A DNA stretch of 33,016 nt, from the IMG/VR virus record IMGVR_UViG_3300035698_017134, positions 1 through 33,016 of that record; one strand, written 5' to 3'. Source of the DNA: a virus. Numbering within the stretch: position 1 is the first letter of the stretch; each line of letters opens with the position of its first letter. Both the position numbers and the translations under genes were made by a program. Shown here piece by piece: positions 549 to 10,928 of the stretch. Under the pieces are notes generated by a model. It searched no databases. It had not been told where the DNA came from and saw only the letters and a program-made list of their open reading frames with translations.

Positions 549-739
549 AACACTGTGAAACATGTATAGACAATCGTGTTTGTGATAAGTGTAAGAGAGC
601 TAGGAATGGAATACCAAATGGACTCTTTTGTCATAGGTGTGATAAGGAACTAACAGGACAATCAAAAAAATGGTGTAAAGCACTCTGTGCAAATAGAGAC
701 TATTTTGATAGAAGGAGAGTAAACTCCACAAATCGTTAA
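545..739 (+). CDS. small zinc-finger protein, 64 aa, HNH/Zn-ribbon-like
   Basis: Eight cysteines in 64 residues make this a likely zinc-binding protein: CETC and CDKC near the N-terminus, then FCHRCDKELTGQSKKWC and a further cysteine. The middle part, C-x2-C-x-K-x-LTG-x-KKWC, resembles the zinc-ribbon that precedes or forms part of phage HNH endonucleases, but no HNH catalytic triad follows. It is therefore either a stand-alone nucleic-acid-binding finger or a reduced relative. It overlaps the upstream gene by 4 nt. A long structured RNA begins directly after its stop codon. Confidence 0.65.
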   Translation: MKHCETCIDNRVCDKCKRARNGIPNGLFCHRCDKELTGQSKKWCKALCANRDYFDRRRVNSTNR

Positions 740-740
740 T

Positions 741-1025
741 AATCCCAGAGTTGTATACTGAGATTGGTTAAGTTATTAGTTGCCGAAAGGTGATAAGTAG
801 TTTGGAGCTACACTATTAAAACTAACGGGCTACGGTCCATTAAATTAATGCGATGTGAATGAAAATTCACTGGTAATACTTTACTAACCCTCGTGGTTGG
901 TTTAGAGGGACGAAATACTGTAAATTAGTACCAAGGGAAGGTAACTCAATATAATTACTAGTTATATGTTGAGTTAGTTGAAACTTCGTGTGATAAACCT
1001 AATACCCTCTAAACTGCTCATGCAG
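741..1025 (+). ncRNA. structured RNA 1, unknown class
   Basis: There is no open frame here, but helices are dense. The 3' domain (886-1025) opens with hairpin AACC-ctcgt-GGTT (886-898). A 10-bp helix follows, GTTTAGAGGG (900-909) with CCCTCTAAAC (1005-1014). Inside it lie ACGAA/TTCGT (910-914 with 985-989), a TACT/AGTA hairpin (916-930) and a long TAACTCAA/TTGAGTTA hairpin (942-976) continued by TATAA/TTATA. It closes with hairpin TGC-TCAT-GCA (1015-1024). A 5' domain (about 765-870) holds two GAAA-capped hairpins: TGCC/GGTG at 781-792, and GTGAAT/ATTCAC at 855-870. The two end hairpins recur at 4413-4634. The transcribed strand is inferred from the neighbouring genes. It does not look like tmRNA, RNase P or a group I intron core. 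Confidence 0.7.
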
Positions 1026-1032
1026 AAACAAT

Positions 1033-2319
1033 ATGAAAGAAAAAACATTAAAAAAACAAATACTCCCTTTCTACGAACATCAAAAAATAATAATAGTAGA
1101 AGACAAGAAATGGTTTGGTATTTTTCAGGGAACAGGTAGTGGAAAAACTAGATCAGCCCTTGAACTCGCTGAAGGTAAAATCTTAGTTGTATGTTTGAAG
1201 CAAGGATATCTTGATAAAACATGGGAGGACAATGCTGAAAAATTTAGCATTAAAAAAGATCTTACGGTAATGAGTAAAGAAATGTTTCGTAAGGATTGGG
1301 AGACTTTGCCTTATTACGACACTCTTATATTTGATGAGGCACATACCATCTTTGGAGTGACTCCATATATGAGACAACGTAACCATGTGCAGATTCCAAA
1401 AGCTTCTCAATTATTTGAGGCAGCACTAGGATATATTCAAAAACATAACCCTATTCGACTTTACACCTTGAGCGCAACCCCTCATTCAAAACCTATGAAA
1501 GTTTGGGCTATGGCAAAACTCTTTGGGGTAAATTGGAACTTTGAAAAATTCAGAGAAACATTTTATGTCTCAAGGGGTGGGTATTGGTTTTCAAGGAAAG
1601 ATGAGGTAACACAGCACAGACTTGGACTCCTAGTTCAAAAATTTGGGTATACAGGAGCTTTAGAAGATTTTGTGGATGTTCCTGAGCAAACACACAAAGA
1701 AGTTCACATAGACCTAACCAAGGCTCAGAAGGATGCAATTAAGACCCTCAAAGAGGAAGAAGCGGACCCAATGATCCAACGTGGAAGAATGAGGACTATT
1801 GAGAATGGAGTTCTCTATGGAAAAGACATCGAGGACATTAATGAACGGGAAGCAAAAATGGTTAAGAGTACTACAATATTTCCATCTAATAAGATTGAAT
1901 ATATTCTTGAGCGAGCTGTTGAGTTTAAAAAGCTTCTCATCTTCGCACAATATACAGGTCAGATTAATGAGATCGCTCGTGTTCTCAGAGAGGAAGGCTA
2001 CACTGTTTCTACCTTAACTGGGAAAACAAAGGATAGAACTTTTATCAAAAGAGTTGATGAAGATCCAGCCCCACATATTATTGTTGCTCAGAGTGGAATT
2101 TCTGCCGGGTACGAATTACCAAGTTTTGAGTGCGTAATATACGCTTCAAAATCTGGGGAGTATGTGCATTACAAACAAAGTCTCGGACGAGTACTCCGAG
2201 CGAACAAATTGAAAAAGAATCTCTATATTCATCTCTTAGTGAAAGGGGGTGCGGACATGGATTGTCATAAGTCGATGATGATCGGAGAAGATTTTCAAGA
2301 GAAATTATCAGTATTATAA
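1033..2319 (+). CDS. SF2 (SNF2/DEAH-type) DNA helicase, 428 aa
   Basis: ATP-dependent DNA helicase or translocase. It shows Walker A GTGSGKT (residues 33-39), motif II DEAH (101-104), motif III SAT (147-149), motif V around QSGISAGYELPS (353-364) and motif VI QSLGRVLR (382-389). Both RecA-like lobes are therefore present. At 428 aa it is compact, with no added nuclease or Zn domain. Phage helicases of this sort serve replication, recombination or annealing of forks. The next two genes encode a Dam-type methylase and a putative nuclease, so the group reads as a DNA-metabolism set. The start lies 8 nt after the 3' hairpin of structured RNA 1, so the RNA may control it or simply share its transcript. 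No Shine-Dalgarno is present. Confidence 0.9.
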   Translation: MKEKTLKKQILPFYEHQKIIIVEDKKWFGIFQGTGSGKTRSALELAEGKILVVCLKQGYLDKTWEDNAEKFSIKKDLTVMSKEMFRKDWETLPYYDTLIFDEAHTIFGVTPYMRQRNHVQIPKASQLFEAALGYIQKHNPIRLYTLSATPHSKPMKVWAMAKLFGVNWNFEKFRETFYVSRGGYWFSRKDEVTQHRLGLLVQKFGYTGALEDFVDVPEQTHKEVHIDLTKAQKDAIKTLKEEEADPMIQRGRMRTIENGVLYGKDIEDINEREAKMVKSTTIFPSNKIEYILERAVEFKKLLIFAQYTGQINEIARVLREEGYTVSTLTGKTKDRTFIKRVDEDPAPHIIVAQSGISAGYELPSFECVIYASKSGEYVHYKQSLGRVLRANKLKKNLYIHLLVKGGADMDCHKSMMIGEDFQEKLSVL

Positions 2320-2329
2320 AAACATTATT

Positions 2330-2746
2330 ATGAATATACACTTTTCATCAAAAACAAATGAATGGTCTACGCCACAAGATTTTTATGACGAACTAAACAA
2401 GGAATTTAATTTTACGTTAGACCCTTGTTGTACTAAAAAAACAGCAAAGTGTGATAAATTTTACACAGAAGAAGAAGATGGTCTAACCCAGTCATGGGAT
2501 GGAGAGGTTGTATTTATGAACCCACCATATGGGAGAGTTATTGGTCAGTGGATTAAAAAAGCCAGTGAAATTAAAAATGGCATTGTAGTTTGTTTAATTC
2601 CAAGTAGAACTGATACTAGATACTTCCATGATTATCTCTATAAAAAGAAAAATGTTAAATTACGTTTCTTAAAAGGAAGATTGAAATTTGGTGGAGCTAA
2701 AAATGCTGCACCATTTCCTAGTCTATTAGCCATTATAAAATCATGA
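2330..2746 (+). CDS. phage DNA N-6-adenine methyltransferase (Dam family)
   Basis: Small adenine methyltransferase of the phage Dam type. The N-terminus has the family hallmark EWSTPQDFYDELNKEF. It is followed by TLDPCCT (SAM-binding region, about residues 29-35) and the catalytic NPPYG motif at 64-68; N-P-P-Y is the amino-methylase signature. The 138-residue length is typical of the family. It transfers a methyl group from S-adenosylmethionine to adenine in DNA, which in phages usually protects against host restriction; the target site cannot be read from sequence. It begins 11 nt after the helicase stop and overlaps the next gene by 4 nt. Confidence 0.9.
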   Translation: MNIHFSSKTNEWSTPQDFYDELNKEFNFTLDPCCTKKTAKCDKFYTEEEDGLTQSWDGEVVFMNPPYGRVIGQWIKKASEIKNGIVVCLIPSRTDTRYFHDYLYKKKNVKLRFLKGRLKFGGAKNAAPFPSLLAIIKS

Positions 2747-3129
2747 GACCTAAAAGAATAAAAAGAGAATCCAAGGAGCAAGTAGTTCTCAATCAATATC
2801 TCAGGGAAAAAAGATTTTATTGTTACTGTGAATTGAAAGTAATGAAAGGAAACACTTTTAATTTCAAAGACATCGAGGAGAGTCAGCTAAGAGGTCTTCC
2901 AGCACTTGAAAAAAATGGATTAGTATGGAAATTATCTGATGCAGATATGAGGCAAAAAGCTTGCGATACTATATGTACCCCACCACTACCTACCTATCTT
3001 GTTATCAAAAAAGACAAAACATTTTACTTCATGAGGTACATGGTTATCGAAGCTATGATGGAGTTAGGAAAGAAAAGTATCACACTGGAAGAGTGTAAAG
3101 AGCTAGCAGAGAAACTTATCCACAGCTAA
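2743..3129 (+). CDS. putative PD-(D/E)XK-like endonuclease, 128 aa
   Basis: Likely small nuclease, moderate confidence. The pattern CELKVMKG (residues 29-36), then IEESQLRGLPAL (about 43-54), VWKLSDADM and a hydrophobic strand TYLVIKKDKTFYFM resembles phage Holliday-junction-resolvase-like PD-(D/E)XK nucleases. In those, ELK carries the catalytic E-x-K and a downstream Q packs the active site. A clear upstream catalytic Asp is not obvious, so an inactive or divergent member is possible. It overlaps the methylase gene by 4 nt. Its last codons (LIHS) encode a perfect DnaA box, and a promoter starts just after its stop. Confidence 0.5.
   Translation: MRPKRIKRESKEQVVLNQYLREKRFYCYCELKVMKGNTFNFKDIEESQLRGLPALEKNGLVWKLSDADMRQKACDTICTPPLPTYLVIKKDKTFYFMRYMVIEAMMELGKKSITLEECKELAEKLIHS
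3117..3125 (+). other. DnaA box (TTATCCACA) at end of nuclease-like gene
   Basis: Exact match to the bacterial DnaA consensus, lying over the last codons of the preceding gene and 6 nt upstream of the -35 box of the promoter at 3132. The second perfect copy (31930-31938) also lies just upstream of a promoter carrying the same ACACC repeats. A coding coincidence is possible, but the repeated arrangement argues for function. Confidence 0.5.
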
Positions 3130-3131
3130 AT

Positions 3132-3160
3132 TAGACACCAACACCAACACCGTGTATACT
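3132..3160 (+). promoter_or_regulatory. sigma-70-like promoter with ACACC repeats
   Basis: TAGACA (3132-3137), 17-bp spacer, TATACT (3155-3160). The spacer carries three direct ACACC units at 6-bp steps, related to the two-unit version at 31148 and 31957. It drives the ribbon-helix-helix gene at 3193 and probably the genes beyond. Spaced short direct repeats are the usual target of RHH repressors, so autoregulation is a reasonable inference. A weak stem GTTA/TAAC lies in the leader. Confidence 0.65.
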
Positions 3161-3192
3161 GTAGGTTAGTTAAGAATAACTATCAACAAATT

Positions 3193-3348
3193 ATGAAACA
3201 AACAAAACAATTACAGAGAATTTACCCAGGGGTTACAGCGGAACAAAAAAAGCTTATTAAAAGCCAAGCAAAACTTTTGAAAATGGGACATGGAGAATTT
3301 ATTCGATATGTTCTTGATCAATACTTTAAAAACACTAAATTAAAATAA
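3193..3348 (+). CDS. ribbon-helix-helix (CopG/Arc-like) DNA-binding protein, 51 aa
   Basis: A 51-residue protein with the layout of a minimal RHH regulator. A short strand with basic residues (KQLQRIYPGVT) is followed by helix A (AEQKKLIKSQAKLLKMG) and helix B (GEFIRYVLDQYFK). The G-[HSM]-x-EFIR-x-L pattern is typical of the CopG/MetJ-Arc fold, which binds operator DNA as dimers through the N-terminal strand. The start ATG follows 'aaatt' with no Shine-Dalgarno. It sits directly behind a promoter whose spacer contains three ACACC repeats, its likely operator; the same motif at 31148 and 31957 would make it a regulator of the right-hand early genes. Confidence 0.65.
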   Translation: MKQTKQLQRIYPGVTAEQKKLIKSQAKLLKMGHGEFIRYVLDQYFKNTKLK

Positions 3349-3353
3349 TTATC

Positions 3354-3647
3354 ATGCAAAATATTTACGAAGAGTACGCATTATTAGATGCGCAAAAAAA
3401 AGAAATCACTGTTAAACAAGATCAACTAAAAGCTGTTATTCTTGAAGGAATGAATAATGAAGGAGAAACAAAGAAGGAAACAGGTATGGGAAATTTCAGT
3501 ATTAGTCGACTAAAGAAATGGACTTACCCTGAAGCTATCTCATTAATGGAAATTGATTTCAAAGCTGCGAAAGCAAAAACAGAATCAACAGGAGAGGCTA
3601 CATTTGTAGAAAAAGATAGTCTACGATTTACAGGAGTAAAACTTTAA
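3354..3647 (+). CDS. conserved phage hypothetical protein, 97 aa
   Basis: The N-terminal half is a coiled helix (EEYALLDAQKKEITVKQDQL, residues 5-24). A C-terminal segment follows: GNFSISRLKKWTYPEAI, then KAAKAKTESTGEATF, ending in SLRFTGVKL. It resembles uncharacterised phage proteins that pair a helical hairpin with a small beta segment, somewhat like Gp157-type proteins. No catalytic residues are seen. Start 'taattatcATG', 5 nt after the RHH stop, in the same transcription unit as the RHH gene. Confidence 0.7.
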   Translation: MQNIYEEYALLDAQKKEITVKQDQLKAVILEGMNNEGETKKETGMGNFSISRLKKWTYPEAISLMEIDFKAAKAKTESTGEATFVEKDSLRFTGVKL

Positions 3648-3652
3648 TCATT

Positions 3653-3763
3653 ATGAAAAATTTTTTGAACCCAAGACAAAACCGTAAACAAAAAAGAGAT
3701 TTAAAAAGAAGAATAAATAAATCTACTAGAGGTTCTAATTTTACTAAACCAAAAAAACAATAA
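3653..3763 (+). CDS. small basic peptide, 36 aa
   Basis: Thirty-six residues with about 14 Lys or Arg (NRKQKRDLKRRINKSTRG in the middle) and no hydrophobic segment. It fits exactly between its neighbours: the start follows TAATC-ATT-ATG of the upstream gene and its TAA is one base before the next ATG. A nucleic-acid- or ribosome-binding role is plausible from charge alone. I do not recognise it. Confidence 0.6.
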   Translation: MKNFLNPRQNRKQKRDLKRRINKSTRGSNFTKPKKQ

Positions 3764-3764
3764 C

Positions 3765-4409
3765 ATGAAAACATCAAAGAAAAAAACCACAAAAAAAGCT
3801 CCAGCTAAAAAGAAAGCTGTTGCTAAAAAGTCTACTGCTAAAAAAACAGTAGCAAAGAAAAATACTGTTAAGAAGTCAAAAGTTAAATTAACAAACTTCA
3901 CTATTGGAGCCACTATTCCAACTATGAGTTATGGTAATATTCAACCAATGATTTCTGTTGAAGCTCCAAGTATCGAAGAAGCTAAGGCAGTTGTTCTACC
4001 AGTTATTGAAGATCTTTATGCGCGGTATGCAGTAACACCTCTTATCAAGGCAGAAAAAGTAGTTCCTAAAGTCACTGTTACAGAAAAAGTTGTAGAAGTT
4101 CCAGCTGAAAATCCTACTCCCAAAGAAGCAGTTGCTGCTAAAAAAGAAGAGATGGTTGCTGAGAAACCTAAGGAAGAAGTTATTCCTTCACCTACTCCAG
4201 TTAAAACTGAAGCTGATACATTATCAGATGAACTAGAGGAATCTCCTGCATTTACTAAAGCAAAGAAAGCTATTACAAATGCATTTAGCCTTGATGCTCT
4301 ATCATTGATTGAAAACCAAATTCAGAAATCAATCAAGCTAACAGAATCTGAAAAACCTCTTCTGCTATCTGAAGTATTGAAGAAACGTAGAGATTTAAAA
4401 ACAGCTTAA
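3765..4409 (+). CDS. lysine-rich histone-tail-like protein, 214 aa
   Basis: Three parts. Residues 1-45 are a Lys/Ala-rich tail with repeated (T/A)KK steps (KKTTKKAPAKKKAVAKKSTA), like histone H1 or AlgP tails, expected to bind DNA without sequence preference. Residues about 46-90 form a small compact domain (NFTIGATIPTMSYGNIQP ... ARYAV) seen in uncharacterised phage proteins. After a Pro/Glu/Val-rich linker, residues about 160-214 form a helical segment (FTKAKKAITNAFSLDALSLI ... EKPLLLSEVLKKRRDLK). It may act as a DNA-coating or nucleoprotein factor during replication. The stop is followed after three bases by structured RNA 2. Confidence 0.75.
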   Translation: MKTSKKKTTKKAPAKKKAVAKKSTAKKTVAKKNTVKKSKVKLTNFTIGATIPTMSYGNIQPMISVEAPSIEEAKAVVLPVIEDLYARYAVTPLIKAEKVVPKVTVTEKVVEVPAENPTPKEAVAAKKEEMVAEKPKEEVIPSPTPVKTEADTLSDELEESPAFTKAKKAITNAFSLDALSLIENQIQKSIKLTESEKPLLLSEVLKKRRDLKTA

Positions 4410-4412
4410 AAT

Positions 4413-4634
4413 AACCCTCGTGGTTAGTTAGCTACAAATTATATTTTACTGAAACTCATAAAATAAACTTTAGTTTAATCAGCTATTAATTACCTACCGT
4501 ACTGTTATGGACTCGGATTCATTGCTATATTCTCTATGGATGATTACAGCAAATAGGGTGCGCTTTGAACATAAGTAATGGAGGTATGGTATAGGGTAAG
4601 AAGTAATTTGGTTTGTAGCTAACTGCTCATGCAG
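4413..4634 (+). ncRNA. structured RNA 2, same unknown class as RNA 1
   Basis: It opens with AACC-ctcgt-GGTT (4413-4425), identical to RNA 1, and ends with AACTGCTCATGCAG (4621-4634), also identical. Between them a perfect 12-bp helix, GTTAGCTACAAA (4427-4438) with TTTGTAGCTAAC (4612-4623), replaces the different helix of RNA 1, so both strands changed together. Nested inside are ACCTACC/GGTATGGT (4492-4498 with 4583-4590, one bulge), TTATG/CATAA (4505-4509 with 4570-4574) and TTGCT/AGCAA (4522-4526 with 4548-4552). There is no coding frame. It lies 3 nt after a stop and 27 nt before the start of the first sponge-like gene. Strand assigned from the neighbouring genes. Confidence 0.75.
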
Positions 4635-4661
4635 TCATTATTAATTAATTTAAAAAAAATT

Positions 4662-4904
4662 ATGGAAGAAGGAAAAACAACTACTTTAGGAGAATCTAGG
4701 GTTAGAACTGAATTTAATCCATCATCAGAAGATGTGGTTACAATTATTAAAAACAAAACTGCGGAGCTTATTGATCTAATAAATCAATGCCCTGATAAGT
4801 CAGTAGTTGAACCTGAATCAGCTGAGTTCTTTAGATTAAAAGCTTTGGCAATGACAGCTTATGAAGAAGCTGCAATGTGGGCAGTTAAAACAGTAACTAA
4901 ATAA
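4662..4904 (+). CDS. Acb2/Tad1-like cyclic-nucleotide sponge domain protein, 80 aa
   Basis: Resembles the short helical-hairpin family that includes phage Acb2 (anti-CBASS) and the hairpin of Tad1 (anti-Thoeris), which sequester cyclic nucleotide or gcADPR signals. The visible signature is GESRVRTEFNPS near residues 9-20, a helix KNKTAELIDLINQC, and the C-terminal RLKALAMTAYEEAAMWAVK, the part most like the family. I chose ATG 4662 over the upstream in-frame ATG 4629. It has the usual 'aaaaaaaattATG' context, and 4629 lies inside the terminal hairpin of structured RNA 2. The next gene, one base on (TAATATG), looks like a second family member. Assignment rests on pattern memory, not a search. 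Confidence 0.6.
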   Translation: MEEGKTTTLGESRVRTEFNPSSEDVVTIIKNKTAELIDLINQCPDKSVVEPESAEFFRLKALAMTAYEEAAMWAVKTVTK

Positions 4905-4905
4905 T

Positions 4906-5358
4906 ATGTTTGATTTTCTTAAAAAGTTTTTTAAAGATACCGGTATTGAAGTTGTTAAGGAACAATCATGTAAAGGTGTCTGTGAAGAAACAGGTCAAGG
5001 TATTGATATAGGTACTGCACCAGGAAGGCAGGTTACTGGAGAAAAATCACATCTAGTAAACGCATTAGATCAAATGAATGATGATCAAAAGCAATTTATT
5101 TCATTAAAAGATAACGAATATGCAAAGATAGTTTCTTTTCACATTCAATCAGATCCAATATCAGAAGTTGGAGTTAATGGGGTCCAAGTACATGACTTGA
5201 TTGAGTATTCAATGCATTTACTAAAATCTTTAAATGACAAATTTCATAGTCCTTATAATGACAATGCAATTTCAAGATTAGAAATAGCACTATCTCAATT
5301 AGAAATGAGAACTAAAGATCGTGTGGCTCGAAAAGTAGAAGGATTTAACCAAGAATAA
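4906..5358 (+). CDS. second Acb2/Tad1-hairpin-like protein, 150 aa
   Basis: The C-terminal half (about residues 90-148: GVNGVQVHDLIEYSMHLLK, then DNAISRLEIALSQLEMRT and DRVARKVEG) matches a widespread phage module of the form ENALAITKLEEALxWLxxRTxDR-x-RGVEG. I associate that module with the Acb2/Tad1 hairpin group. The N-terminal 65 residues begin with MFDFLKKFFKDTG, similar to the start of the 75-aa protein at 7149 (MLKFIKNLFNDTS), and include CKGVCEETGQ and a G-rich loop. The gene is coupled to the upstream sponge-like gene by TAATATG. A pair of such genes suggests a counter-defence pair with different ligands, but the biochemical role here is inference. Confidence 0.5.
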   Translation: MFDFLKKFFKDTGIEVVKEQSCKGVCEETGQGIDIGTAPGRQVTGEKSHLVNALDQMNDDQKQFISLKDNEYAKIVSFHIQSDPISEVGVNGVQVHDLIEYSMHLLKSLNDKFHSPYNDNAISRLEIALSQLEMRTKDRVARKVEGFNQE

Positions 5359-5372
5359 TTTCTTGTGTTATT

Positions 5373-5478
5373 CGGGAGGTGGCGAAATAGGTAAACGCAG
5401 TGTACTGGTCGCAACAGTTGGGTCTTATATCGACCAATGGACAATGATATTTTGTAGGTTCGACTCCTACTCTCCCGA
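5373..5478 (+). tRNA. tRNA-like gene, Leu-type frame, anticodon unresolved
   Basis: Acceptor stem CGGGAGG (5373-5379) pairs with TCTCCCG (5471-5477), one G-U, with discriminator A 5478. The D-arm TG-GCG-aaatAGGtaaa-CGC (5380-5398) is Leu-like. The T-arm GTAGG-TTCGACT-CCTAC (5454-5470) is perfect. At 106 nt it is about 20 nt longer than a class II tRNA. The middle (5399-5453) does not give a normal anticodon arm. A 6-bp helix TGGTCG/CGACCA (5406-5411 with 5431-5436) encloses 19 nt, suggesting an insertion in the anticodon loop. The alternative ACTG-gtcgcaa-CAGT has a 7-nt loop but sits 4 nt too far from the D-stem. No CCA is encoded. Confidence 0.6.
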
Positions 5479-5496
5479 CATTAATTAAAAAACATT

Positions 5497-5682
5497 ATGA
5501 GTGAAAAAAAGAAAACAAAAAAAAGAATACATTGGAAACCTTCAAGGTTAATTGAAGATCCTATGACAAACGAAGTATACGTTTTAATGTATGGTGGATC
5601 AGGTCGAGTTCGTTTCCTTTCAACAACAGAGATTCAAGATCCTGTATGGTTTGAAGAAAGATTTAGAAGAAGCAATGAATAA
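5497..5682 (+). CDS. hypothetical protein, 61 aa
   Basis: Basic N-terminus (EKKKTKKRIHWKPSRL), then what looks like a small beta-rich core (NEVYVLMYGGSGRVRFL) and a charged helical tail. There is no membrane segment and no recognised motif. It starts at 'aaaaaacattATG' just after the tRNA-like gene and is followed by another gene 9 nt on, so it is an ordinary member of the left-arm series. Confidence 0.65.
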   Translation: MSEKKKTKKRIHWKPSRLIEDPMTNEVYVLMYGGSGRVRFLSTTEIQDPVWFEERFRRSNE

Positions 5683-5691
5683 TCAATTATT

Positions 5692-6078
5692 ATGAAAATA
5701 GAAATCAAAAAAAATGAATTAAGTTTCATGCCAATCAATTTAGGAGAAGAGGTAATGTTAGAAAAAATGAGAAGTCATTTTGAAGAAAACAAGTTTATGA
5801 CAGATAGGGTTTGGAGCGAAGAACAAAAGAAAAAGAAAACTGGATTAGGACTTCGTGTATCTTTAGATGTTTCTGATTTAATAAAACAAACAGAAAAAGC
5901 CTTTGGTGGATGTAAGAATTGTTATGGAAAAGGTTATTCAACTGTAAAAGATTTTACTACTGCTCATGCAGACTTTATTGGAGACAAGAAATCATCAATT
6001 GAAAACAACCCTATGAAATATTGTTCATGTGAAAGAGGTAAACAATTAGAATCATTATTAACTATCGTAAATGAATAA
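5692..6078 (+). CDS. zinc-binding conserved phage protein, 128 aa
   Basis: Residues about 74-82 read GGCKNCYGKGY, a DnaJ-type CxxCxGxG half-finger. A second pair, KYCSCERGKQL, sits near residue 111, so a four-cysteine zinc site is likely. The segment between (DFTTAHADFIGDKK) is conserved in look-alike phage proteins I recall. The N-terminal 70 residues are helical and charged. Function unknown; a protein or RNA-binding adaptor is possible. The codons for TTAHA contain the 13-mer that forms the 3' hairpin of both structured RNAs (5959-5971). Confidence 0.7.
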   Translation: MKIEIKKNELSFMPINLGEEVMLEKMRSHFEENKFMTDRVWSEEQKKKKTGLGLRVSLDVSDLIKQTEKAFGGCKNCYGKGYSTVKDFTTAHADFIGDKKSSIENNPMKYCSCERGKQLESLLTIVNE

Positions 6079-9023: not shown

Positions 9024-10928
9024 TTATGTGATAGTTTTAAATTCCTTTGCAAACCTTGCAACATATTGATTACCGGATGTCCCTAGACTATCTCTAGTGT
9101 TTCCTCCTCGAGATTGAGGTTTTCCAGTAAACCAAACAGAAGCTGCATCATCCCAGTTTCCGTATTTTTTATAATTCTTCATAAACTGAACAGCTACTAT
9201 TTTATCTTGAAGCTCAGGATCATTTAGAAATTCTTCAGGATTAACACTTCTTCCAACAGCTTCACGTCCCCATTGATCTAAGTTCCCTGGCATCACTTGA
9301 TATCTTCCGAGTGCTTTTTCTCCTTTATATAATCCACCCTTTACCAATGGACCAATAGCACTATATCCTCCTGATCCTCGACTTTCAATATTTGCAATAG
9401 ACTGCATCGCTGTAGCTAATTGACTTGATGGAGCAATTTCTCTTGAAGCGAAAGAAACATTTGGATTATAAACTCCTCGATTATTATCTGAATAAGAATC
9501 TGCATTAGCTGTGTTAATTAATCCATTACCGGAATCTCTCGTATTACCAACGTTGTTAAAAGCTAATGGATTATATCCATAAATGGATTCAAATTCAGCA
9601 GCTTCTTCAGTTGTAAAATCTGATTCTTCTTCATCACTTCTTAGGATTGAACCGCCTAAGCTATTCATAATATCTTCATACATACCAAGAACATCAACAA
9701 GGTCACGCCTTAGTAATGCTGGATCCCTAGAAACTTCTAGTCGTCCAACCAAACCTTGCAAACTCTCCAACTGCTTCTGTGGAACTTGCCCAAGCCCTGA
9801 TCCTTCTCGTTTAATGTTCAAGAGAGCATCAATACCAACGTTATCTTTTACTGATTGAATTAATCTCTCGATTTCCCATTCATCATTTCCTCGTATTCCT
9901 GAATTAATCCACCTTTGGTTTGCACCAATTACAGATTGACCTTTAGGATTATCGCCATCAGTAAACGCTGATGATGCATCAAATCTCGCAATCGCATCTT
10001 TTGCATCTCGTACTACAGTTGAGGCACCTTTAAGTGCATTTGATGACATTGGGTTTAATTTAGGATTTTGAGCTATCTGATTAAGAACCTGTCGTTGCAT
10101 ATCTTCACCATAAGCTGATTTAACATCTGACATTTTATATTCATCTGCTTGAATTGCTGAAGCAAGATTCTTAGCTTCTTGTGATACTACTCCATCAAAT
10201 TCTTCTGATCCATTATTACCACCAGCAACTACATTTCCTTGTGCATCATATCTTGTTTGCCCTTCACTAAGAGTAAATCCTTCATCTTTTTGAGAATCTT
10301 GTTTTTGCTTTGTTTCTAATCGAGAAAATACACTTTGAAGAGCAGGGTCATAAATTCCTGCTTGTGCATTTTCAATAGCTTTTAATTCAGCTGGAGTATA
10401 TGCAATTCCTGAATCAGCTCCAACTCCATAAGGATCAGTCTCTCCAGTGGCAATATCATTACGAGCGTTATTCATATTTCTCGCTGTATTTTGTATTTGT
10501 TGAGTATTTTGATCACCTACAATCGCATCTCCAGCTGCAACACCAACAGCTCCACCAGTTAATCTTTTTGCTACCATATCAGAATAATCATTTGGATCAT
10601 ATCTTTCACCTGTTTCAGGATTAACATATTTACTTTGATACCCCTGCCCTCCTTGCCCTCCTCCTTGTTGTGCAGGTGGTTGTGATCCATTAAACAAAGG
10701 TGAAGGCACCCCTGATTGTGCAGGTGGTTGATTTTCCGTTCCAGGATTTACATTTACTGCAGGTGGTTGTTGTTCTACAAAAGGAGAAGGAACACTATCT
10801 CCAGGTTGTTTTTGTTGGGATCTATACTTCCCTGAAAAAACATCACCAAGAATCATTGCTGGTCCAGTGATAGGATTTGATCTCAAGGCTGTATTTCCTG
10901 CTTTTTTAAATAGATCTTTTAATTTCAT
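9024..10928 (-). CDS. virion protein with C-terminal lysozyme-like transglycosylase domain, 634 aa
   Basis: The C-terminal ~120 residues look like a lysozyme-fold lytic transglycosylase: IANIESRGSGGYSAIGP (likely catalytic Glu), GEKALGRYQVMPGN, then helices ending in AVQFMKNYKKYGNWDDAASVW. It would cut peptidoglycan locally during DNA injection. The N-terminal ~100 residues are Pro/Gln/Gly-rich and disordered (QPPAQQGGGQGG); the middle is helical. It is joined to the upstream peptidoglycan-binding gene by TAATATG, so the two likely act together in the virion. Start 10928 is supported by that junction. Confidence 0.75.
   Translation of the reverse strand: MKLKDLFKKAGNTALRSNPITGPAMILGDVFSGKYRSQQKQPGDSVPSPFVEQQPPAVNVNPGTENQPPAQSGVPSPLFNGSQPPAQQGGGQGGQGYQSKYVNPETGERYDPNDYSDMVAKRLTGGAVGVAAGDAIVGDQNTQQIQNTARNMNNARNDIATGETDPYGVGADSGIAYTPAELKAIENAQAGIYDPALQSVFSRLETKQKQDSQKDEGFTLSEGQTRYDAQGNVVAGGNNGSEEFDGVVSQEAKNLASAIQADEYKMSDVKSAYGEDMQRQVLNQIAQNPKLNPMSSNALKGASTVVRDAKDAIARFDASSAFTDGDNPKGQSVIGANQRWINSGIRGNDEWEIERLIQSVKDNVGIDALLNIKREGSGLGQVPQKQLESLQGLVGRLEVSRDPALLRRDLVDVLGMYEDIMNSLGGSILRSDEEESDFTTEEAAEFESIYGYNPLAFNNVGNTRDSGNGLINTANADSYSDNNRGVYNPNVSFASREIAPSSQLATAMQSIANIESRGSGGYSAIGPLVKGGLYKGEKALGRYQVMPGNLDQWGREAVGRSVNPEEFLNDPELQDKIVAVQFMKNYKKYGNWDDAASVWFTGKPQSRGGNTRDSLGTSGNQYVARFAKEFKTIT

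Follow-up and report, generated by a model that had tools for sequence, protein, structure and literature searches.

Bacterial rRNAs are processed by RNase III at long stems that enclose them and whose sequence is free, and in the general layout of phage T7 an operon carries more than one site for this enzyme. At the T7 site R1.1, RNase III cleaves an irregular stem located between genes (PMC8708148, PMC6121014). Two similar put RNAs, each of approximately 70 nt and with two stem-loops, are present in early transcripts of phage HK022 (PMC9378689). Among larger phage RNAs, GOLLD is often longer than 800 nt, and GOLLD and ROOL each have a conserved sequence and structure of their own (PMC12286853). 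The two elements described here, RNA1 and RNA2, are located in an uncultivated bacterial virus known from an IMG/VR record of 33,016 bases, which was analysed over its full length (hereafter the window). Most likely, their conserved ends pair into one long imperfect stem around unrelated interiors.

The recurring end blocks of 13-14 nt on which the original prediction was based are exact. The 5′ box AACCCTCGTGGTT is found at positions 886-898 (RNA1) and 4413-4425 (RNA2) of the + strand, with 0.18 matches expected by chance when up to two mismatches are allowed, and the 3′ box AACTGCTCATGCAG at 1012-1025 and 4621-4634 (0.27 matches expected). Each box pair also encloses a distinct and completely paired stem, as had been predicted. 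In RNA1 this stem consists of ten Watson-Crick pairs (GTTTAGAGGG at 900-909 with CCCTCTAAAC at 1005-1014) around an interior of 95 nt (910-1004), and in RNA2 of 15 pairs, two of them G-U (GTTAGCTACAAATTA at 4427-4441 with TGGTTTGTAGCTAAC at 4609-4623), around an interior of 167 nt (4442-4608) which is itself folded. At random window positions, at least ten consecutive pairs occur at a rate of 4.5e-6. Both regions folded better than shuffled sequences (z = −2.4 for RNA1 and −2.6 for RNA2), and better on the + strand than on the − strand. A further copy of the 3′ box with one mismatch (5958-5971) is probably a chance match, as it is located inside an ORF (5692-6078) and is not associated with a stem. 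That ORF precedes an exonuclease gene. The intergenic stretch 5′ of RNA1 (741-885, + strand) is separately structured according to sequence, motif search and folding, with a GAAA hairpin at 782-791 and a UACG hairpin at 827-838, and is not common to RNA2. Homology of this stretch with a sequence in the related phage L028 by way of these two hairpins was not accepted because both are common tetraloops.

In the window, the + strand carries an early operon and the − strand late genes, among them those encoding terminase and a cell-wall amidase. RNA1 lies downstream of a 64-aa ORF, and its 3′ box stops 7 nt short of the ATG (1033) of the helicase gene that follows. RNA2 comes after a Lys/Ala-rich gene with a stop codon ending at 4409, and its 3′ box is approximately 27 nt from the likely ATG of the next gene, whose product has an Acb2/Tad1 hairpin domain. 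The protein encoded at 4629-4904, just after RNA2, matches this domain in Pfam with 44.5 bits and is likely to be an anti-CBASS cyclic-nucleotide sponge. When the whole window was compared with Rfam 15, which includes GOLLD, ROOL, HEARO and riboswitches, the only match was a tRNA at 5373-5478 (38.9 bits, 106 nt). It was not called by ARAGORN, and its anticodon arm appears enlarged; a similar tRNA-like element sits just upstream of the exonuclease gene of L028 (approximately 9880-9985). Permissive scans of positions 700-6000 and of the third copy described below returned nothing over the RNAs. The statement that they belong to no known family therefore held at gathering and permissive thresholds.

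Relatives of the virus were found via neighbouring proteins. One of them, L014, which is clearly related to the window in its helicase and the genes next to it, contains a third copy with both boxes around the stem GTGTGTAGGGTAT/ATACCCTACACAC and an interior of 106 nt. This copy is located directly before an exonuclease gene, 10 nt from the ATG. With the interiors removed, the three copies aligned without gaps. Two-sided changes were present at eight of the ten central stem pairs, a value matched by none of 500 shuffles and nowhere near reached by slid versions, which is strong evidence of selection on pairing. A diverged intergenic element in a second relative, L011 (5749-5825), has a stem nearly identical to that of L014 and changed boxes. 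The known copies hence comprise three with the same boxes and one diverged element. The elements of L014 and L011 and RNA2 start 2-7 nt past a stop codon. The genes downstream of the elements vary (helicase, Acb2-like, exonuclease, primase), which suits a general mRNA element. Additional structured intergenic sequence, in which hairpins flank a TGACTAACAA/TTGTTAGTCA stem, is present 3′ of the L011 element (5890-6070).

Neither a widespread family nor a large ornate RNA with a conserved core was supported. In scans of viral and genome contigs, exact boxes were found in the window and L014 only, and two-box gapped patterns gave L014 as the sole real match. A search for the 3′ box combined with AAACAA yielded no new element, and searches of the whole records of the relatives yielded no additional copy. 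Seven exact 5′-box matches in viral contigs were dismissed as chance hits on the basis of their sequence. In the records of four relatives, CCTTCGTGGTTGG sits in similar protein-like sequence. The interiors of RNA1, RNA2 and the L014 copy showed no similarity to each other beyond that of shuffled sequences.

The boxes had been interpreted as two independent end hairpins, H1 and H2, that frame each RNA. They also pair with each other in register, thereby lengthening the central stem to 19-22 bp, with a U-C mismatch at a constant position. The 5′ strand of this extension is formed by 890-899 in RNA1 and 4417-4426 in RNA2, and its 3′ strand in RNA1 by 1015-1025. The lowest-energy folds of RNA2 and L014 have a stem of 22 bp that includes pairing between the two boxes. 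For the three copies with identical boxes, all alignment cells were paired over 19 pairs in the box-box model as compared with 98.1% in the hairpin model, where H1 loses a pair in L014. When L011 was added, the box-box model remained at 100% over 17 pairs while the hairpin model reached 90.3%, its columns dropping to 75-83% paired. Eleven pairs of this larger alignment have two-sided changes, two of them within the boxes. The L011 boxes pair around the same U-C mismatch, with two compensatory changes (C-G to A-U and G-C to U-A) and one change from G-U to G-C. Box flanks pair in register at seven of eight positions per element (chance 0.0066, counted once for the three identical-box copies and once for L011), figures that are weakened by the choice of the register after the folds had been seen. 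As a free duplex the two boxes have an ordinary energy, and it is the in-register match alone that stands out. The lowest-energy fold of L011 itself consists of local hairpins formed by other bases. The long stem is therefore considered better supported by the alignment than two independent hairpins as the frame, but not proven, and switching between the two forms is possible. Conserved apparent hairpins picked out by inspection can turn out to be the two strands of a single stem.

The hairpins would have a role of their own in a cis-acting leader or antitermination element, in which H1 and H2 are bound by RNA polymerase, the ribosome or an RNA-binding protein in a put-like manner, possibly with a switch to the long stem. 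Such an element is unlikely, even though both pairings are possible in all copies and nearly equal in energy in RNA1 (−38.5 kcal/mol for the hairpins and −37.6 kcal/mol for the long stem; RNA2, −55.0 and −57.3; L014, −41.7 and −46.4). H2 is a perfect hairpin kept in RNA1, RNA2 and L014, CC-CTCGT-GG is conserved beyond the needs of the long stem, and the two put RNAs of HK022 with their two stem-loops each provide a precedent (PMC9378689). However, H1 is broken in L014, the changes in L011 alter both hairpins while preserving box-box pairing, the elements sit deep in the operon, and put lacks a long connecting stem around some 100 nt.

Long stems were also found in codirectional intergenic gaps of the relatives. 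They comprise 16-29 bp and enclose interiors of 18-195 nt with mostly unrelated sequence; most relatives lack the boxes. The long stems of the group often precede primase, helicase or nuclease genes, and the 3′ end is located 7-27 nt before an ATG in 10 of 14 elements. Such stems occupy 15 of 81 gaps in the family as compared with 2 of 41 gaps in unrelated contigs, an excess that is modest because near-identical contigs (L085/L086/L091 and L040/L041) and two terminator-like stems (L040/L041) were counted. The coding strand is the more stable one in 14 of the 15 long intergenic stems of the phage group, and in a strand-neutral alignment of the arms G-U pairs outnumber A-C oppositions by 48 to 20. 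As a DNA hairpin would show no such bias, the elements most probably act as RNA rather than as DNA. Together with the covariation observed with L014 included, these data support the proposed selection on RNA structure.

An element functioning at the DNA level, that is, a single-strand replication or primosome hairpin, a recombination end (attC-like or IS200/IS605-like) or a palindromic operator, is very unlikely in view of the strand bias and the G-U excess. It would agree with the near-palindromic nature of both boxes and with the 3′-box copy at 5958, which is located 113 nt upstream of an exonuclease gene, the gene directly following the element in L014. Yet this copy is stemless and part of a coding sequence. 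Recombination or MITE-like ends would need a conserved stem and interior, and copies of a MITE or transposon would share both their terminal and their interior sequence; here, stem and interior differ among the copies. A Pistol ribozyme, a group I intron, a retron, and attC or IS200/IS605 ends were set aside because their hallmark motifs or partner genes were not apparent.

Three long-stem intergenic RNAs of the group, in L085 (6672-6775, − strand), L028 (491-725) and L037 (5635-5785), enclose a tRNA T-arm that conforms to the consensus (GGTTCRAATCC type) and, after it, a GAAA hairpin. None of the three matched Rfam, ARAGORN detected no tRNA in L028 and L037, and inspection of RNA1 and RNA2 by eye revealed no T-arm. 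In L037, two long-stem RNAs are arranged in tandem (5635-5999) with common stem ends (GTGTAGAA.../...CTGCACATTAT) and interiors that are not shared, a recurrence of the RNA1/RNA2 pattern in a different phage. Possibly a different RNA family is represented by a folded intergenic RNA of approximately 120 nt that is located 3′ of the exonuclease gene and before a strong terminator-like hairpin, with short motifs in common (L030, 11199-11374; L031, 8607-8782; L033, 11030-11215; L035, 7842-8041; L036, 9373-9543; L037, 8984-9162).

The T-arms are among the observations that point to a non-coding RNA acting in trans. The long stem would close it, and the frame would excise it from the early transcript as a variable payload, such as a decoy or anti-defence RNA. 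Large folded interiors that differ while the frame stays, and the position of RNA2 directly before the gene with the Acb2/Tad1 hairpin domain, are likewise consistent with this reading. It is nevertheless doubtful, as conservation of the payload between copies was not detected, no promoter or terminator of its own stands out, and the elements end just 5′ of start codons. Even less likely is the more specific proposal of a new kind of phage RNA cassette, with mutually complementary boxes, a covarying stem and swappable structured payloads, some of them tRNA-like, that would be excised from early mRNA and have trans-acting roles, such as that of a decoy for host defence systems.

With a probability of roughly 0.4, RNA1 and RNA2 are best explained as intercistronic processing or leader stems of phage early mRNA that resemble T7 R sites. 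This reading suits where the stem lies and how long and irregular it is, as well as the absence of any one constant gene downstream. Each RNA would fold into an irregular stem of approximately 20 bp. Its lower half would consist of the paired boxes (5′-CUCGUGG-U-URG-stem/stem-CUG-C-UCAUG-C-AG-3′, with the fixed U-C mismatch) and its upper half of any sequence that pairs, while the interiors of approximately 95 and 167 nt would be free to change. The stem may serve as a double-strand RNA processing site for an RNase III-type enzyme of the host, as at T7 R sites. Cutting would separate the messages and give the following gene a defined 5′ end close to its start, and the conserved boxes may represent the recognised or cut segment. 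Points against a processing stem are the similar energies of the two forms in RNA1 and the ability of H2 to form a perfect hairpin; moreover, most relatives lack the boxes and the excess of long stems over unrelated contigs is modest.

With these elements, an uncultivated phage group gains an RNA that carries no annotation and is accessible to experiment. If the interiors were excised payloads, some of them tRNA-like, they would provide phages with a modular route to deploy structured RNAs from early mRNAs. Like GOLLD and ROOL, they are phage-borne structured RNAs of unassigned function near tRNA-like genes, but they have no match in Rfam. With rRNA processing stems they share a long stem of free sequence around an RNA; here, however, the enclosed RNAs are mutually unrelated and no rRNA is involved. 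As in HK022, two related RNAs with two possible stem-loops each are encoded in phage early transcripts. Unlike the promoter-proximal put RNAs of approximately 70 nt, they have a variable enclosed interior and a covarying connecting stem (PMC9378689), and their boxes are more than 110 nt apart, a distance taken up by the paired stem and by 95-167 nt of interior. Two differences from T7 sites, which measure approximately 50-60 nt and have small loops, weigh against a processing stem: the folded interiors of 95-167 nt far exceed T7 R-site loops, and the two boxes are kept almost letter for letter, which is more than a nuclease site that depends on pairing only should require. Like T7 R sites, they are irregular long stems with fixed mismatches in intergenic positions of the early region, just 5′ of the next gene (PMC8708148, PMC6121014). 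As in T7, the operon holds several of them. T7-type stems are irregular, intergenic and about 20 bp or longer, and all three copies have 19 pairs plus a fixed mismatch, between genes and shortly 5′ of a start codon (7, 27 and 10 nt).
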